Shown one piece after another: positions 1,462 through 31,531 of a DNA stretch of 32,839 bases (within the stretch, counting starts at the first letter, position 1; every line of letters begins with the position of its first letter). The notes under the pieces are model-generated. The model searched no databases. It worked only from the letters and a program-made list of their open reading frames with translations, and was not told the DNA's origin. The stretch spans positions 1-32,839 of the forward strand of contig JAKAON010000004.1 of assembly GCA_021812185.1 (NCBI GenBank), given 5' to 3'. The stretch comes from Microcaldota archaeon (GTDB lineage Archaea > Micrarchaeota > Micrarchaeia > Micrarchaeales > CABMGC01). The position numbers and the translations under genes were made by a program.

Positions 1462-1688
1462 TTACCCACTTAAAAATCTGATATCTATGCCATGAGTAGC
1501 TATAAAAATATAATGTACAGCCGTTTTTTCACGCAGTTTGTTACTGCTCGATGAACTGGATTTAGGGTTTTTGCCGCAGAATTCGGTTTATGCCCAGGCG
1601 TATGGTCCTGCCAGGTAAGTGGCCAACCTAACATCGGGTTATAAAAACTTGAAAAGTTAAAAGCAAGCACGTCTCGTTTGATGATTTG

Positions 1689-3623
1689 ATGAAATTCGCA
1701 CTTAAAGCACCATACAAGGTTTCTCCAGGGCAGGCTACTGCCATAGGGCAGATTGTGTCTGGTTTTGCCAAATTTAAAAAACAGACGCTTCTCGGCATAA
1801 CCGGAAGCGGAAAAACATTTGTTATGGCCAATGTTATTCAGTCTTTGCAAAAACCGACCCTGATAATTGCGCACAACAAGACACTCGCAGCTCAGCTCTA
1901 CACCGAGCTAAAGGAGCTTTTCCCGGAAAATAGAGTTGAATATTTCGTTTCGTATTACGATTATTACCAGCCAGAATCGTACATGCCGACTACGGATACA
2001 TATATAGAAAAAGATTCATCGGTAAACGAACAGATAGAAAAGATGAGGCTGCACGCGGTCTCGAGCCTTGTCAGCAGAAAAGACACTATAGTAGTCGCAA
2101 GTATAAGCTGCATATATGGTATTGGAAATCCAAAAGATTTCAGCAATATGTCCATAGAGCTGAAAGCAGGTGCAGAAATTTCAAGGAGCAAGCTTCTACA
2201 CTCGCTAATTGAGATACAATATCAAAGAAATGACAACAGCCTTGATTCTGGAAAGTTTCGGGTACGTGGCGAAACAATTGACGTCGTCCCTGCATACGAA
2301 AACAACATAATAAGAGTGGAGATAGATGATGGAAGGATAAAGAGCATAAAGGAGATTGACTTTTTGACTGGAGATAGGATAGTAGATATCGACAGCACAG
2401 TGATTTATCCGGCCCGGCAGTACGTGGTCCCTCAAGAAAAGAAGATTGTAGCGCTTGAGGCAATTAAGAAGGAATTGCAAGAACAACTTCCAAAACTTCC
2501 TGCACTGGAGGCGCAAAGGCTCGAGAGGAGAGTAAGGTATGACATTGAGATGATCAATGAGATTGGATATACGAGCGGCATTGAGAATTACAGCAGGCAT
2601 TTTGATGGAAGGGCACCGGGAGAACCGCCATACGTGCTTATGGATTACTTTCCGAAGGATTTTCTCTTGATAATAGATGAAAGCCACCAGACAATACCTC
2701 AATCGAGGGCCATGTATAATGGGGATTTCATGCGCAAGAAGAACCTTGTGGATTTTGGTTTTAGGCTGCCTAGCGCTTTTGACAATCGCCCATTAAAATT
2801 TGAAGAATTTGAAGCGAAGATGGGAACTACGTTATTCGTTTCTGCAACACCTGCGCAGTACGAGCTTGCGCATAGCCAAAAGGAAGTTGATTTGATTACC
2901 CGTCCGACAGGCCTGCTAGACCCGGAGGTTGAAGTAAGACCAATGGAAGGGCAGATGAAGTATTTGATGGAACAAGCGCAAGTGACTATATCAAATGGGA
3001 ATAGAGTGCTGATCACGACACTTACAAAGAGAATGGCAGAGGACCTTACGGATTTTTTGGCAAAGGAGAATTTCAAAGTGAGATATTTGCACAGTGAGAT
3101 ATCGAACCTTGATAGAATTGAGCTAATAAGGCAACTTCGTGCAAAGGAATTCGATATTTTAGTTGGGATAAATCTGCTAAGGGAAGGGCTTGACATACCT
3201 GAAGTTGCAACCATATTCATACTTGATGCGGACAAGGAAGGTTTTTTGAGGGACACTAGAAGCCTTATCCAGACAATAGGTAGAGCTGCAAGGAATGTTG
3301 ATGGGCTAGTTATCTTGTTTGCAGACAAGATTACCGACTCGATTGCACAAGCAGTAAAGATAACCGAACAAAGAAGATTGCTACAAATGGAATATAACAA
3401 AAAATACGGCATAACCCCAAAGACCGTAGTAAAGAGCATTGAAGAGAAAAAGAGGTCAGTGGCTGGGATAAAGCATATGGGAAGGTCGGATATCCAAAAG
3501 GAGATTGCAAGGATGGATGCTGAGATGAAGAAGGCCGCAGAGAACCTTCAATTTGAAAAAGCAATAGAACTACGAGAGAGCATTGAAGAGATGAAGAGGC
3601 TGGCTGCGAGGCGAGAGGGATGA
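1689..3623 (+). CDS. uvrB: Excinuclease ABC subunit B
   Basis: Walker A GITGSGKT, beta-hairpin region [16 protein letters not shown], helicase motifs, C-terminal UVR motif ([15 protein letters not shown]). Start at TTG 1686 or ATG 1689; TATA-like ttataaaaac around 1639. Confidence 0.97.
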
Positions 3624-6484
3624 GAGATAGCATATTTGTAAAGGGAGCACGGGAGCATAATTTAAAGAACATAGATGTGGAATTGCCAAGGAACAAGCTT
3701 ATTGTTATGACGGGGCTTTCAGGATCTGGAAAATCTACACTTGCTTTTGACACAATATATGCCGAAGGTCAGAGGAGGTATGTTGAGAGCCTGTCAGCAT
3801 ATGCAAGGCAGTTTCTCGGACTTATGGACAAGCCAGATGTTGATAGCATAGATGGACTTTCGCCTGCGATTAGCATAGAACAGAAAACAACCAACAAGAA
3901 TCCAAGGTCGACAGTTGGAACGGTTACCGAGATTTATGATTATCTAAGGCTTCTATACGCCAGAATCGGAACGCACCATTGCCCAAAATGCAACAGCCCA
4001 ATAAAGCCTCAGAGCGCAGAGAATATAACAAGCCTCATAATGGATGCGAAAGGCAAGACGCTTGTCTTCCTCGCACCTATAGTAAGAGGGCAGAAAGGGA
4101 CGCACGACCAGGTAATTGAGGATCTTAAAAAGCAGGGTTTTGCAAAAATAAGGATAGACCAAAGGATTTACTCTTCGGATACGGTGAGAAACGATGCAAG
4201 GCTTGCCAAATATGAAAAACATTGGATAGAGGCAGTAATAGACTCGGTAAAAATTGATGAAGAAGAGAGATCGCGCATTGCAGAAGCAGTTGAGCAGGCG
4301 CTTAGAGTTGGAAATGGAAGGATGATAGTTATTGGGAGCAGGGGAAATCGAGAGGCAAAGAAAGAATTGAACAGATTCTCAGATGAGATAGCATATAGCA
4401 CTTTTGGGGCCTGCCAAAATCACCCGGAGATAGTGTTCGAGAGTTTGGAGCCTAGGATGTTCTCGTTCAACAGCCCTTTCGGAGCCTGCCCGACTTGCCA
4501 CGGGCTTGGGGAGATAACCGAAATCTCCGCTGACCTGCTCATACCGGATAAATCTAAGTCGGTAATGGAAGGTGCAATAGAGATATATGGAAGGATGGAC
4601 CTTGCGTGGAGGGCGGAGCAGATAGCAGTTGCCGGGAGGAGGCATGGATTTGATGTTTGGAAGCCTATAGAGAAGTTTACGCCAAGGCAATTGGAGGTCC
4701 TTTTATATGGAGATAGAGAGGACGAACCAACGAGCAAGTGGAACATGCGAAAGTGGATGGGTTCAAAGAGTGACAAATTCGAAGGCGTTATTCCGCAAAC
4801 GATGAGGTTATACCGCGATACGAAAAGCGAATGGAGAAAGGAGGAGATCGAGAAATTCATGAAGGCCGATCCGTGCAAGACATGCATGGGCAAGAGGCTC
4901 CAGCCAGTTGTGCTCGCAGTCAAGATTGAAGGAATGAGCATAATAGATGTGACTGATTTAAGTATCGAGGATGCGGTGGGGTTCTTTGGAGAATTGAAAT
5001 CTAAACTTGCCCAGAAAGAACTTGCAATAGCTACGCAGGTACTAAAAGAGATCAACGAGAGGCTCGGATTTTTGAAAAATGTGGGGCTTGGATACCTTTC
5101 CTTATCTAGAAGCGCTAGGACTCTTTCGGGAGGGGAAGCGCAGCGCATACGGCTCGCTACGCAGATAGGGAGCAATCTTATGGGCGTACTGTATATTTTA
5201 GACGAGCCTAGCATAGGCCTCCACCAAAGGGACAATGCAAAACTAATCAGCACGCTGCATAGGCTTAGGGATATAGGAAACACGCTGATAGTGGTAGAAC
5301 ATGATCTTGATACGATTCTTGCGGCAGATTATATAGTGGACATAGGGCCGGGAGCAGGCATACACGGAGGGCATATAACCGCGCAGGGAACGCCAAAAGA
5401 GGTCATGAATAACAAAAAGAGCCTGACAGGTAGATACCTTTCTGGAGAGCTTAGGATAGATATCCCAAGCATCAGAAGAAAGCCGAAAGATTTCATGCGG
5501 ATAACAGGGGCAAGCCAGAACAATCTGAAAAACCTGACAGTGCCACTGCCAATAGGGGTTCTGTGCGGAATAACTGGAGTGTCTGGATCTGGAAAGAGCA
5601 CTTTGATGAACCAGACAGTGATGCCGCTTCTGAAGAAAAAATTCGGAGAGCAGGCGGATTTGATAGGATCATATTTGTCCTTTGACGTGCCAAGGGTTGT
5701 ACAAAACGTTATAGTTATAGACCAGGATCCGATAGGGAGGACGCCTAGGAGCAATCCCGCAACATACACAAAACTCTTTGACGAGATAAGGAAACTCTTT
5801 GCGTCAACAAGAGAGGCCCAGGTTAGGGGATACCTGGAGGGCAGGTTTTCATTCAACGTAAAAGGCGGCAGATGTGAAACATGCCAGGGAGACGGAGTCC
5901 TGAAGATCGAGATGAATTTTCTTCCGGATGTCTACGTTGAATGCAGCGAGTGCCACGGCAAGAGATACAATAAGGAAACGCTTGGCGTACTGTATCGCGG
6001 AAAGAACATTTCCGAAATACTGAATATGGAGGTTGAAGAGGCAAATGCATTCTTCGAGAATATTCCGCCCATCTCAAGGAAACTCAAAACGCTTGTTGAT
6101 GTAGGGCTTGGTTACATAAAACTTGGGCAGAGCGCGACAACGCTTTCCGGAGGAGAGAGCCAGAGGATAAAGATTGCAAGGGAATTAAGCAAAAATAAGC
6201 AGGGCCATGTGGTATACATGCTCGACGAACCCACTACGGGTCTCCATTTCGACGATACAAAAAGGCTGATAGGCGTGCTCAACAACCTTGTAGAAAAAGG
6301 CAATAGCGTATTTGTCATAGAGCATAATTTAGACGTGGTAAAAAGCTGCGATTATATAATCGACTTAGGGCCTGAAGGAGGCGGGGGCGGAGGCGAGATA
6401 GTAGCAAGCGGGACCCCCGAGGAAATAATAAAAGTTAAGGGATCGCACACTGGCAGGTTTCTAATCCAAGCTTTAGGCAGGTAA
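3620..6484 (+). CDS. uvrA: Excinuclease ABC subunit A
   Basis: Two ABC ATPase modules ([18 protein letters not shown]), signature [24 protein letters not shown], zinc modules ([22 protein letters not shown]). Overlaps the uvrB stop by 4 nt. Confidence 0.98.
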
Positions 6485-6489
6485 ATATA

Positions 6490-8115
6490 TTGATACAAAT
6501 AAAAAACTGGACAGATTTTGATCCCCATCTGGTGCCGATGGATCCAGGGGTGTACTTGTTTAGGGATGATGAGGATGCAGTCTTATATTGCGGAAAGGCA
6601 AAAGCCCTGCGAAAGAGGGTGAGTAGTTATTTTTCTAACCAAGATAGGCTTGCAACAAGGACGAGGCAGCTAGTATCTAAGATACGCAAGATAGACTGGA
6701 TAGTTGTAGGTAGCGAGGTCGAGGCGCTGCTGCTTGAGAATAAATTGATTAAAAAATATTCCCCGAAGTACAACATCAGTTTAAAGGATTCTAAGACATT
6801 TGCATACATCGCATTCACAAAGGATGTGTACCCTAGAATCTTAAGTAGCAGGAAGAGCGGGCCAAAACTAGAATCTTTTGGACCTTATACTGACGGCACT
6901 ATGCGCAGGGACCTGCAAAAACTCGTAGTCAGCACGTTCAAGTTAAGGACATGCAGGACTATGCCAAATAAGGCGTGCTTAAATTACCATATCGGAATAT
7001 GCACCGCACCGTGCATCGGAAATGTGAGCCAGTTGGATTATCAAAAACAGGTAGATGATGCAAGGCGGTTCCTTGAAGGCGACAGCGCGCGCACGGTGGA
7101 TGCCTTGACAAAACGCATGCACGAAGCATCGATGGGAATGAGGTACGAAGAGGCTCTTGAACTTAGAAACCAGATAGATAGCATCAGAGCCTTGTCAGAA
7201 AAACAGATAGTGGATCATGAAAAAAACTATGACCAGGATATACTCGTATTCAAGAAAGTGGGCGAGAAGGCACTCGTCGTCCAAATGGGGATTAGGAGAG
7301 GTGTGCTACTTGGGAAGAAAGATTTTGAAATTGAGAACCAGGAGAATTTCGAGCAGGAATTCTTAAGGGCGTTTTACTCTGCGAACCAGATCCCACGAGA
7401 GATAATGCTAAACAAAGCCTGTTGGACAGATGAAGTCGAGAGAGAAGCGTTGGAAGGATTTTTGGAGCGTTCGAGGGGTGCGCGTGTCAGCATTATTGTT
7501 CCGATCAAAGGAGAAAAGCGCGCTCTAATAGACCTTGCCGAAAAGAATATCGAAGCCAATATGGAGCATGATAGCGCACTTGCAGATTTGCAGGAATCCT
7601 TAAATTTGCCATCTATCCCACTAGTGATAGAATCGTTTGATATATCAAACCTAGGAGACGAGCACATAGTTTCGGGCATGGTAAGGTTTGTGAACGCAAA
7701 ACCGGACAAAAAAGGGTACAGGAAATTCAAGATAAGGACGGTGGATGGCGCTGACGACTTCGCAAGCATGCGTGAAGTTGTGCATAGGAGATATAGAAGA
7801 CTGTTGGATGAAGGCGCAAAGATGCCTGACCTTATTTTAATCGATGGCGGGATCGAGCAGCTAAATGCAGCTAGGGATTCGCTCAATTCGCTTGGACTTG
7901 CACTTCCCGTTATAGGGCTTGCCAAAAAATTTGAAGAGATTTATCTACCGGACGAATCAACCCCAAGGAGATTTAACAACAACAGCAAGATGATGCTTTT
8001 GCTCAGGAGGATCAGGGATGCGACCCATAACTTCTCGATAGGATACAACAGGAAACGCCGGGAAATGAAATTGCGAGAGGAATTTGAAGGTCATGCGGTA
8101 CCATCTTCGCAATAG
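6490..8115 (+). CDS. uvrC: Excinuclease ABC subunit C, lacking the C-terminal HhH region
   Basis: GIY-YIG type N-terminus (GVYLFRDDEDAVLYCGKAKALRKRVSSYF), UVR motif, RNase H-like nuclease motifs (FDISN, DDFASM, IDGG, RIRDATHNF). TTG start. Confidence 0.96.
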   Translation: MIQIKNWTDFDPHLVPMDPGVYLFRDDEDAVLYCGKAKALRKRVSSYFSNQDRLATRTRQLVSKIRKIDWIVVGSEVEALLLENKLIKKYSPKYNISLKDSKTFAYIAFTKDVYPRILSSRKSGPKLESFGPYTDGTMRRDLQKLVVSTFKLRTCRTMPNKACLNYHIGICTAPCIGNVSQLDYQKQVDDARRFLEGDSARTVDALTKRMHEASMGMRYEEALELRNQIDSIRALSEKQIVDHEKNYDQDILVFKKVGEKALVVQMGIRRGVLLGKKDFEIENQENFEQEFLRAFYSANQIPREIMLNKACWTDEVEREALEGFLERSRGARVSIIVPIKGEKRALIDLAEKNIEANMEHDSALADLQESLNLPSIPLVIESFDISNLGDEHIVSGMVRFVNAKPDKKGYRKFKIRTVDGADDFASMREVVHRRYRRLLDEGAKMPDLILIDGGIEQLNAARDSLNSLGLALPVIGLAKKFEEIYLPDESTPRRFNNNSKMMLLLRRIRDATHNFSIGYNRKRREMKLREEFEGHAVPSSQ

Positions 8116-8198: not shown

Positions 8199-9128
8199 AT
8201 GAGGCTAACGCGCACGCTGCAAAATGCAGAAGTTAACATAGAGTCTACTGCTTCTAAAAGTCCAAAATCGCAAAGCGAGATGGAAAGAAACTTCTTAGGA
8301 AGAAGTTCCATCAAGAACCAATCCGCAATGGAATATCTCATGACGTACGGATGGGCTATACTTATTATTGCAGTCGTGCTTGTCGCACTCTTTCAAATGG
8401 GTGTATTCAACTCGGCAAATTTCGCGCCCAAGGCGCAACCTGGTTCGTGCCAGGTGTTTAGAACAACAGCTGCGACGTCTCTTGAAGGAACTTGTAATAA
8501 TGAGTTGCCGCAGTATGTCGCGCAGTTTGATGGGGCGAGCAGCAATATTAATGCCCCTTCTAGTTCTTACACACCAGACCAAATTACAATAAATGCATGG
8601 ATAGATGTATCCTCTGCAGATATATCAATACACGATGCTATAATAAATCTAGACAATGTAGAACTTTTCTCAGTGCTTAGTACAGGTATGGAATATTGGC
8701 CTGACACGAGTAACTATGGATTTAGTTATACTACTAACTTTCTAAACGGTTGGAATTTTGTTACGGCAGAATATAATTTTCAAACTCAAAACGGATTACT
8801 TTTTGTAAATGGTAGGGAAGTTGCAACAGGTTCCTCATCGTTGCCCCAAAAAAAAGCAATAACTCAAACAATAATTGGTACTTGGAGCGGAGTGTATTAT
8901 AAAGGTGGAATAGCCAATATCCAAATCTACAACACCTCCCTCTCAGCGAATGATGTGGCTGCACTTTATCATGAAGGAATCGGAGGTGCTCCTCAAAATA
9001 CGCAGAATCTTGTAGGGTGGTGGCCGCTGAACGGGAATGCGAACGACTACTCCGGGAATAACAACAACGGTGCTGCGACCAACGTGATATATACTGGTTC
9101 TTGGACTAGCGGGTATAGCGCTCCGTGA
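8199..9128 (+). CDS. Class III (type IV pilin-like) signal protein with LamG domain, paralog A
   Basis: QSAMEYLMTYGWAILIIAVVLVALFQMGVF pilin-like N-helix; LamG features (AQFDG, ITINAWI, ANIQIYNTSLSANDVAALY, LVGWWPLNGNANDYSGNNNNG). Same architecture as 19446..20375. Confidence 0.85.
   Translation: MRLTRTLQNAEVNIESTASKSPKSQSEMERNFLGRSSIKNQSAMEYLMTYGWAILIIAVVLVALFQMGVFNSANFAPKAQPGSCQVFRTTAATSLEGTCNNELPQYVAQFDGASSNINAPSSSYTPDQITINAWIDVSSADISIHDAIINLDNVELFSVLSTGMEYWPDTSNYGFSYTTNFLNGWNFVTAEYNFQTQNGLLFVNGREVATGSSSLPQKKAITQTIIGTWSGVYYKGGIANIQIYNTSLSANDVAALYHEGIGGAPQNTQNLVGWWPLNGNANDYSGNNNNGAATNVIYTGSWTSGYSAP
8289..8307 (+). repeat. Perfect hairpin in leader-coding region of paralog A
   Basis: AACTTCTT-AGG-AAGAAGTT (8-bp arms, 3-nt loop). 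Confidence 0.7.
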
Positions 9129-19445: not shown

Positions 19446-20375
19446 ATGAAAAATATTGTCTCTCTCTCTGAGGAGCCACAAAAAAAGGATACCTCTCAGA
19501 GTAGCTCTTCCCTGAAATCCCAGTCCGTTAAACTCTTTGGGAAAGAGTTTAATCAGAAATTGAAGTTGCAAAGCGCAATGGAGTATCTCATGACGTACGG
19601 ATGGGCGATACTTATTATCGCCGTTGTGCTTGTCGCACTCTTTCAAATGGGCGTATTCAACTCGGCGAATTTCGCGCCTAAGGCGCAACCAGGCTCGTGC
19701 CAGGTGTTTAAGACAGTGGCTGCGACATCTCTTGAAGGGACTTGCAATAATGAGCTGCCGCAGTATGTTGCGCAATTTGATGGGGTAGATAGCGTAATTA
19801 ACTTAGATTCTGTTCCAAAACCTTCTCTACCTATAACTTTTGTGATGTGGATAAATCCAAACACAGATAATCCAACAGGAATGTTTGATGCTGATCCAGG
19901 TCAACCATATGATTTAAGAAGTGGTTCACCTGGAAATGTTGAATGGTGGAACGCAAATCCCTTAGTTCCTTTGGGGCTTAGTGCAAGAAATTGGTATATG
20001 CTTGTGTTTGTTTACAGGCAAACATCTGTAAATATTATTGATTATTATAGAAACGGTGCCCTTATAGGAACCTATTCCGGTACTAGTGCAACTGGTTATA
20101 ATTTTTTTAATATGCAATTGGGACTTTCTACTAATGTTGGATATTATAATGGAATTATAGCAAACGTCCAAATCTACAACACCTCTCTTTCAGCAAATGA
20201 TGTGGCTGCACTTTACTATGAAGGAATTGGAGGCGCCCCTCAAAATACGCAAAACCTTGTAGGTTGGTGGCCGCTGAATGGGAATGCGAACGACTACTCT
20301 GGGAATAATAACAACGGAGCTGCGACTAACGTGATATATACTGGCTCTTGGACTTCAGGGTATAGTGCACCGTGA
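19446..20375 (+). CDS. Class III (type IV pilin-like) signal protein with LamG domain, paralog B
   Basis: Same 72-aa N-terminal block and 72-aa C-terminal block as paralog A; divergent LamG-like centre. Confidence 0.85.
   Translation: MKNIVSLSEEPQKKDTSQSSSSLKSQSVKLFGKEFNQKLKLQSAMEYLMTYGWAILIIAVVLVALFQMGVFNSANFAPKAQPGSCQVFKTVAATSLEGTCNNELPQYVAQFDGVDSVINLDSVPKPSLPITFVMWINPNTDNPTGMFDADPGQPYDLRSGSPGNVEWWNANPLVPLGLSARNWYMLVFVYRQTSVNIIDYYRNGALIGTYSGTSATGYNFFNMQLGLSTNVGYYNGIIANVQIYNTSLSANDVAALYYEGIGGAPQNTQNLVGWWPLNGNANDYSGNNNNGAATNVIYTGSWTSGYSAP
19528..19552 (+). repeat. Perfect hairpin in leader-coding region of paralog B
   Basis: TTAAACTCTTT-GGG-AAAGAGTTTAA (11-bp arms, 3-nt loop). Confidence 0.75.
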
Positions 20376-29897: not shown

Positions 29898-31325
29898 TCA
29901 TCTCACGCAGCTCGCATTATCTGGCAGGAGAATTGAATAGTAGCTGCCATTGTATGCTATTTTGTATCTTGAGAGATTTGAGATGAATGAGGGAGACACT
30001 CCGATTTGCTTGAATATTATCAAAGGATATGTTCCTGAGTTCGTAGAGTTCACTGAAAATGGAGAGTACGCATTGGCATTTAAGTATACGAGATAGACCC
30101 AGGAGTTGGAGAACACCTTGCATCCCCCGTATCCCATCGAGCTTAATTTGTCTAGCCCCATGTGGACCACTGACCCGTTGTAGTTTATGTTGTAAGGCCC
30201 GTACACGTTTCCCGATTGGTGATATGCACTGAAATTTGAAACAGTAGCAATCGTCATTATCAGTAGTGAAAATATCGCAATATTGCGCGAGATAGTAGGC
30301 ATCTTCTCTGATCCCTTCTGCAGGATAGGAAGGGATACGAGTATGGCAGATAAGGCAATAAAATCTGCAAAACGGATTTGGTCGAATTGGATAGAATGCA
30401 TTGAGAGTATCAAATAGCATATCGCAGACAAAGGTATGAAAAGAGATAGCATCCTCGCATAACTATGGTCCTGGCGCAGATGCATAATGATTTTTTTGAT
30501 GTCTTTTAGTTTGAATTGAAGCAATCCAAACGCCAAAAATGCAACAGGTATCAGCAATGCGATAATTGCAGGGTATGCCGATATCGATGTAGGCAAACTT
30601 GGATTTGCTAAAGTAATGTCTATGGAACTCGTATAGCTTGCAAGCGGGCTGCCGAAATAGACATAGTTTATTGCAAGCCATGGAATCGTAAATAACAAGA
30701 ACAATGCAAATGCCATGAACACCTTGCCAGGCTTTTCGAGTAATATCACCATAGGCAGAAATATCAATGCAGGATACTTGCTAAGCCCGGCCAATGCGAA
30801 AAATGCGCCGCACATTGGATCTTTCTTGTATAGGAAAGCTATTGCGACAAGCACCATTGAAAGTGATAATATATCCGTGCTATCCACAGTGAAGGACAAA
30901 TAAATGAAGTATGGATTTAGCATCAGGCCGTATACCAAAAGAGTGTCAACATTAAGCGACCTGCCGAAGAATCTTATCGATAGGAGGAATATTGAAAAGA
31001 GCACAATTAAGTAGAAGAGCATTGGATTTTGCACAAAATGCATTATAACTGCAAGAATCGCGCTTTCGATTGGAGGCCTGAAAATTTCTATATAAAATAA
31101 GTTATTTTGCACTATGAAATAATTCGACAGGTGGAATGCCCCTGATATGAACTGAGAGGTTGAATAACTCCTTGCATTTAGAAACTGCGCCACGAAGTCC
31201 CATGAAGGACCCTGTGTTAGGTATGTTGCTATGATTGCAACAAGGGATAAGCCGATAAGAATCAGCAAGATAACATTATTTGCCAGCGGCATTAATGTAT
31301 TCGCGGAACTTAAGTTTTTGCCCAT
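29898..31325 (-). CDS. Polytopic membrane protein, GT-C-type glycosyltransferase-like
   Basis: Many TM segments, loop FLNARSYSTSQFISGAFH...EIFRPPIESAI. ORF track start 31472 reads through a tRNA gene; ATG 31325 (MGKNLSSANTLM) is the likely start. Confidence 0.68.
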   Translation of the reverse strand: MGKNLSSANTLMPLANNVILLILIGLSLVAIIATYLTQGPSWDFVAQFLNARSYSTSQFISGAFHLSNYFIVQNNLFYIEIFRPPIESAILAVIMHFVQNPMLFYLIVLFSIFLLSIRFFGRSLNVDTLLVYGLMLNPYFIYLSFTVDSTDILSLSMVLVAIAFLYKKDPMCGAFFALAGLSKYPALIFLPMVILLEKPGKVFMAFALFLLFTIPWLAINYVYFGSPLASYTSSIDITLANPSLPTSISAYPAIIALLIPVAFLAFGLLQFKLKDIKKIIMHLRQDHSYARMLSLFIPLSAICYLILSMHSIQFDQIRFADFIALSAILVSLPILQKGSEKMPTISRNIAIFSLLIMTIATVSNFSAYHQSGNVYGPYNINYNGSVVHMGLDKLSSMGYGGCKVFSNSWVYLVYLNANAYSPFSVNSTNSGTYPLIIFKQIGVSPSFISNLSRYKIAYNGSYYSILLPDNASCVR

Positions 31326-31357
31326 GTTTCCCTGCCTATATGCTTGAAAAAGAGATG

Positions 31358-31470
31358 CGCCGGAGTTGGGATTTTCAAGCTTGTTTTTGAACCCAAAATG
31401 CCTAAAAGGCAACCAGATCTCGAGTTTCGCCGCTTTGCTCTGGCGCGTTACCTGGTTCCGCCACTCCGGC
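31358..31470 (-). tRNA. tRNA-Ser(CGA) with two candidate 14-nt introns
   Basis: Minus strand: GCCGGAG acceptor / CTCCGGC + G73; D-arm GCG-GAACCAGGTAA-CGC; anticodon stem CCAGA/TCTGG with CTCGAGA loop; long variable arm TGCC-TTTTA-GGCA; T-stem TTGGG/CCCAA. Removing 14 nt at the anticodon arm and 14 nt in the T-loop gives an 85-nt type II tRNA. Confidence 0.88.
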
Positions 31471-31531
31471 ACGTTTGTTTAAGGCATTTAGCAATCTTTT
31501 TATTTGTTATATAAGTAATAAAAGTGTATTT

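Follow-up and report, generated by a model that had tools for sequence, protein, structure and literature searches.

On its minus strand, the window (the whole 32,839-nt stretch of DNA analyzed, which is contig 8 in the 921-kb draft genome of a member of the Micrarchaeota, assembled in 78 contigs and 88.5% complete) almost certainly carries a functional tRNA-Ser(CGA) gene interrupted by two short, protein-spliced introns of the bulge-helix-bulge (BHB) family, at tRNA positions 30/31 and 59/60 (Table 1). When both 14-nt inserts are taken out, all stems of the resulting 85-nt molecule are intact, and ARAGORN calls it tRNA-Ser(cga). The spliced form has the marks of a class II archaeal tRNA-Ser, namely, a cloverleaf with a 7-bp acceptor stem, a long variable arm, the anticodon CGA, and G73, a base found in 77 of the 77 parsed copies of the gene described below. 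A first-pass annotation had proposed a minus-strand tRNA-Ser(CGA) with two 14-nt introns and an 85-nt product with G73; the former is confirmed by ARAGORN on the spliced form and by the relatives of the gene, and the latter by the ARAGORN call.

A TATA-box-like element and a possible terminator were picked out by eye on either side of the gene (Table 1); a sigma-70/terminator scan, which is of a type not suited to archaea, returned nothing useful. A listed reading frame at window positions 29898 to 31472 (minus strand) crosses the tRNA gene, and a start at 31325, just beyond the tRNA, is likelier. Elsewhere in the window, adjacent UvrB, UvrA, and UvrC-like genes (1686 to 8115, plus strand), named putatively from their sequences, are repair genes of bacterial type in an archaeal genome. 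Two 309-amino-acid (aa) pilin-like proteins (8199 to 9128 and 19446 to 20375, plus strand) flank an apparent type IV pilus gene cluster; their N-terminal membrane segments are nearly identical and their C-terminal ends identical, while their middles differ.

Table 1. Parts of the tRNA-Ser(CGA) gene and its surroundings (positions in the window), and other tRNA genes of the genome with predicted 59/60 introns; slashes within bulges mark the cut
Feature	Position	Strand	Basis
tRNA-Ser(CGA) precursor, 113 nt; mature form 85 nt, G73	31358..31470	-	sequence reading; ARAGORN on spliced form; covariance model R1; orthologs
Exon 1, GCCGGAGTGGCGGAACCAGGTAACGCGCCAG, through tRNA position 30	31440..31470	-	sequence; intron-1-less orthologs L259-L261
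Intron 1, 14 nt, AGCAAAGCGGCGAA, at 30/31	31426..31439	-	conserved 3' end, covarying inner helix, intronless relatives
Intron 1 pairing: exon CGCC with intron GGCG; bulges AG/A and AA/A; inner GC/GC pairs, AAA loop	31426..31439	-	
Exon 2: A31, loop CTCGAGA (anticodon CGA), 3' stem TCTGG, variable arm, 5' T stem, TTCAAA (54-59)	31386..31425	-	sequence; ARAGORN
Intron 2, 14 nt, AACAAGCTTGAAAA, at 59/60	31372..31385	-	RNAfold of T arm, own tRNA-Ser(TGA), homologous T-loop introns
Intron 2 pairing: exon TTCA with intron TGAA; 3' bulge AA/T; 5' side an open loop (bulge-helix-loop)	31372..31385	-	
Exon 3: T60, CCCAA, CTCCGGC, G73	31358..31371	-	sequence; ARAGORN
TATA-box-like TTATATAA, ~40 nt upstream of tRNA 5' end	31507..31514	-	candidate, seen by eye in sequence
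T-rich stretch directly 3' of tRNA, possible archaeal terminator	31345..31353	-	candidate, seen by eye in sequence
tRNA-Arg(TCT), 59/60 intron 14 nt, ends TGAAAA before T60			L037/L038/L258 set (G000:C27:7144, G000:C17:21576, G000:C5:105051)
tRNA-Ala(GGC), 59/60 intron 31 nt, ends TGAAAA before T60			L037/L038/L258 set
tRNA-Arg(CCT), 59/60 intron ~15 nt, ends TGAAAA before T60			L037/L038/L258 set

The unspliced gene is easily missed, as the first-pass annotation had warned. In scans of the window, no tRNA was found for it by ARAGORN or, at gathering thresholds, by Rfam, and it is absent from the RF00005 matches across the whole genome at an E value of ≤10, where 35 other tRNAs lie above the cut-off. 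Removal of the T-loop insert alone allowed ARAGORN to find the gene and to place a 14-nt intron in its anticodon arm. We also built a covariance model from the three serine tRNAs of the genome (model R1), which recovered exactly positions 31358 to 31470 (71.2 bits, E value = 2 × 10−17); because the spliced tRNA-Ser(CGA) was among the training sequences, this match is a fit and not an independent discovery. The intron form of the anticodon arm recurs in 79 genomes of the phylum, however, and the match is therefore not a matter of chance. The intron models of tRNAscan-SE 2.0 cover Crenarchaeota/Euryarchaeota and Thaumarchaeota (PMC8450103).

The exact junctions were set by comparison with relatives. 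The string GGCGAAACTCGAGATCTGG, in which the final 6 nt of intron 1 are followed by exon 2, was sought in 85,488 species genomes and yielded 83 stretches; a pattern scan of viral contigs gave no match. Eighty of the 83 were parsed (L138 to L217): 76 are complete tRNA-Ser(CGA) genes, two (L161 and L212) appear to be cut off on the 5′ side, and two bacterial records (L140 and L214) are not tRNAs. The titles of the parsed stretches name mostly Micrarchaeota, some Marsarchaeota, one “bacterium,” and two Hadarchaeota (L163 and L213). Intron 1 ends in GGCGAA in 77/77 parsed genes, the window's own included, but since this motif belonged to the string that gathered them, a fairer count comes from a search of the phylum with GCGCCAG-N(0-30)-ACTCGAGATCTGG, a pattern of which GGCGAA is not a part. 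Among 303 Micrarchaeota genomes, 88 matched this pattern; the arm has an intron of 11 to 18 nt in 79 of them and is uninterrupted in 9, and the 3′ end was GGCGAA in 78 of the 79 introns and GGCGAG in the other. A few further copies have introns of 44 to 45 nt at the same position. Three complete orthologs that lack intron 1 (L259 to L261) were read, and around the junction they equal the predicted spliced sequence. Two boundaries, 30/31 and 31/32, had been left open by the first-pass annotation; relatives with CCAGT or CCAGC keep the stem only if the cut falls at 30/31, which upholds the first and rules out the second.

Both Hadarchaeota sequences are tRNA-Ser(CGA) genes with an intron at 30/31 and a GGCGAA 3′ end, which could reflect shared ancestry, transfer, or convergence. 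Members of genus g3 (L118 in G028 and L119 in G002) have intronless serine-type tRNAs with the loop CCCGAAA, which is read as having the anticodon CGA and a C in place of T at position 33.

For the T-loop insert, whose boundary had been given as ambiguous, the relatives fix the position at 59/60: in the T loop of all 77 parsed genes, TTCAAA or TTCGAA is followed by T, either directly or with the intron in between. Homologous inserts at this place range from 14 to 45 nt, and the flanking exon bases stay fixed. The genome's own tRNA-Ser(TGA) has a T arm, TTTTGGGTTCAAATCCCAA, that is identical to that of the spliced CGA tRNA and has no insert. Two similar genes, L162 and L188, show the same arrangement with introns of 12 plus 19 and 14 plus 15 nt, respectively. 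Among tRNA-Ser(CGA) genes, only members of the window's own family showed the T-loop intron, and members of the sister family with a matchable gene have lengths of 95 to 100 nt, corresponding to the first intron only. Model R1 found serine-type tRNAs in 61/61 genomes of the relatives search; reading 60 of these places revealed tRNA-Ser(CGA) genes in which intron 1 again interrupts the anticodon stem, the T-loop intron being present in some and absent in others.

We then evaluated the pairing at the splice sites. Across relatives, intron 1 keeps exon CGCC opposite intron GGCG, with bulges AG/N and AA/A. Its inner helix varies in sequence, and yet over 65 distinct introns (the parsed loci and a few copies from the phylum search) 93 of the 130 possible pairs are formed, compared with a shuffle mean of 56 (0 of 5,000 shuffles reached 93) and 43 to 55 pairs in slid registers. 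In the T-loop introns, exon TTCA pairs with four intron bases ending two bases before the cut. At this offset of 2, all four positions pair in 31 of 37 introns (mean, 3.8 of 4, versus 0.9 to 2.4 at other offsets), and the longer introns (n = 31) have an inner helix with 101 of 124 pairs (shuffle mean, 57; maximum, 77). Both inner helices beat all 5,000 shuffles and all slid versions; because the tests ignore relatedness among the sequences, the shuffle counts are not probabilities, and the sliding control agrees with them in direction.

These sites share the central exon-intron helix of about 4 bp that defines the BHB family, with cuts in the flanking bulges; the helix is invariant or nearly so at an exact offset across relatives and has covariation support. 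The first-pass annotation had looked for a BHB-like structure at each insertion, and one is present at both, but in relaxed form: neither intron in this genome has the strict form, in which each bulge is 3 nt long and a stable helix lies on either side. The outer helix of intron 1 is nearly absent here, and intron 2, being too short for an inner helix, is a bulge-helix-loop and not a full BHB. Relaxed motifs are known substrates of the ARMAN-type endonuclease (PMC6379350, PMC4033280), so membership in the family does not depend on the strict form. Folding of the T arm with RNAfold returned a bulge-helix-loop with a 3-nt bulge, in which the TTCAA and TTGAA segments, already noted as complementary in the first-pass annotation, are paired. 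For the isolated 40-nt anticodon region around intron 1, RNAfold did not prefer a BHB fold; thermodynamic folding alone is therefore no proof, and it was comparison that provided it.

The same evidence weighs on whether the gene is instead a decayed tRNA-Ser(CGA) pseudogene broken by random insertions, which we consider highly improbable. The stems are all intact once the two inserts are removed, dozens of genomes share the positions of the inserts and their 3′ motifs, and the inner helices covary, even though standard tRNA finders miss the gene and the assembly is incomplete. The serine tRNAs found in the genome are GCT, TGA (with a canonical intron), and CGA. A second tRNA-Ser(CGA), which the first-pass annotation had suggested looking for, was not found in the 88.5%-complete assembly, outside which a further copy could lie.

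A matching splicing endonuclease and an RNA ligase are both encoded in the genome. A 383-aa protein (L031, 1144 to 2295, minus strand) matches the three-unit (epsilon2) splicing endonuclease of ARMAN-2 (PDB 4fz2, 9w2k; PMC12397907) over its full length with 506 bits, which settles the endonuclease type as the ARMAN one, a point that the first-pass annotation had marked for checking. The protein has the catalytic Tyr, His, and Lys, and the Tyr-Lys of the ARMAN-specific loop (156 and 157 in this enzyme) is conserved in 28/28 aligned three-unit enzymes; this loop is required for cutting and confers broad specificity (PMC12397907, PMC6379350). Unlike the ARMAN-2 enzyme, the present one is a homolog from another genome, known by its sequence. 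The ligase is RtcB (E value = 3.8 × 10−163). Single reading frames of about 380 to 430 aa with the endonuclease domain occur across the class, including in families whose tRNA-Ser(CGA) arm is uninterrupted, and thus the endonuclease allows but does not need these introns. Short endonucleases of 173 to 176 aa that lack the ARMAN loop were seen in G157, G161, and G162 (L227 to L229); of these genomes, G157 and G162 at a minimum encode a long one (~400 aa) as well.

From these parts we infer that the gene is transcribed and its RNA cut and joined in the cell, as well as the order in which the two introns are excised. The precursor would fold with exon CGCC paired to intron GGCG and exon TTCA to intron TGAA, the genome's own three-unit endonuclease would cut two bases beyond each exon-intron helix, and RtcB would join the exons. 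If the 14-nt segments were retained instead, the anticodon arm or T loop of the tRNA that the cell uses would be enlarged. This seems improbable in the extreme: although splicing is deduced here from sequence, the T-loop inserts of homologs vary widely in length between fixed exon bases, relatives have uninterrupted forms, splicing enzymes are encoded in the genome, and the normal contact between the D loop and the T loop would be disturbed if the latter were 21 nt long. An assembly error, to which a draft in 78 contigs might be prone, has a negligible chance of explaining the inserts and is refuted in practice by the recurrence of equivalent introns in independently assembled genomes from many projects and by the two similar genes (L162 and L188) with the same arrangement. 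The view of the first-pass annotation that the insertions behave as introns is thus borne out by the intronless orthologs, the T arm of tRNA-Ser(TGA), the splice-site pairing, the enzymes, and the lack of a second copy in the assembly.

Next, we searched 61 genomes with a motif for T-loop introns, GGGTTCRAA-N(4-34)-TGRAANTCCC, and obtained 132 matches in 54 of them, with 0 for the reversed control pattern. By this measure, predicted introns at 59/60 are widespread in the window's order. The present genome has four matches, in tRNA-Ser(CGA), tRNA-Arg(TCT), tRNA-Ala(GGC), and tRNA-Arg(CCT), the last named by its anticodon loop. A repeat family within the long T-loop introns was sought in the gathered loci, and only a few scattered hairpins were found. 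A hairpin-like sequence, AACCTTTTTACGAAAAGCTTTACCAAAAAGT, recurs with variants in several genomes (L224, L164, and L168) and loosely resembles some long T-loop introns.

Other tRNA genes of the genome have unusual forms as well. The tRNA-Leu(CAA) gene (L048; G000:C2:1670-1768, minus strand) has a 21-nt T loop, equal to a 14-nt insert, with a 3′ end that lacks the usual TGAA pairing at 59/60. An insert of variable length lies in the D arm of tRNA-Leu(TAA) (L046; G000:C48:14027-14134, minus strand) and of its counterparts in relatives (L085, L090, L092 to L094, L096 to L098, and L100 to L103). A 3′ half of tRNA-Ala(TGC) (L040/L224; G000:C48:58757-58811, minus strand) has intact anticodon and T arms and no recognizable 5′ half nearby; it could be part of a split tRNA, a gene with a long intron, or the remnant of an integration site. 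No partner was found for a split form, and the sole exact new candidate for its 5′ half, C50:2617, does not continue as a tRNA. Two tandem tRNA-Ala-like 3′ ends lie at the end of contig G000:C35 (L042/L225), and a long intron interrupts the anticodon arm of a tRNA-Trp(CCA) gene (L041/L226; G000:C41, minus strand).

In 2011, Fujishima et al. reportedly described tRNA genes with several introns from ARMAN-1 and ARMAN-2. Published sites of noncanonical archaeal tRNA introns include 29/30, 30/31, 45/46, 53/54, 56/57, and 59/60, among others (PMC4090602), and ARMAN-1 and ARMAN-2 are among the archaea with multiple-intron tRNAs (PMC4033280); the tRNA-Ser(CGA) gene therefore belongs to a known kind. 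The ARMAN genes come from the same lineage, the Micrarchaeota, and go with the same type of endonuclease. Noncanonical BHB introns of Thermoproteales and others (PMC4090602) are likewise short, occupy the same 30/31 and 59/60 positions, can be several to a gene, and have the same kind of exon-intron helix, about 4 bp long and flanked by bulges, whereas the phylum here is a different one and its three-unit epsilon2 endonuclease contrasts with the crenarchaeal alpha-beta type. Possible novelties are the scale of the comparative evidence and how far T-loop introns reach across the order. It is conceivable, if somewhat doubtful, that the Micrarchaeota are a second lineage besides the Thermoproteales in which 59/60 introns have come to occupy many tRNA genes, with fast turnover and a separately evolved broad-specificity enzyme, and that the 30/31 intron shared with Hadarchaeota is old or was exchanged between phyla.

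Such genes are missed by ordinary tRNA finders, so Micrarchaeota genomes can seem short of essential tRNAs. The comparative set could train a Micrarchaeota-specific intron model and guide the choice of test substrates. Moreover, the 79 intron-bearing and 9 intronless arms, together with the 132 T-loop matches in 61 genomes, amount to a natural experiment on the gain, loss, and drift of splice sites for an archaeal splicing enzyme with a solved RNA-bound structure.
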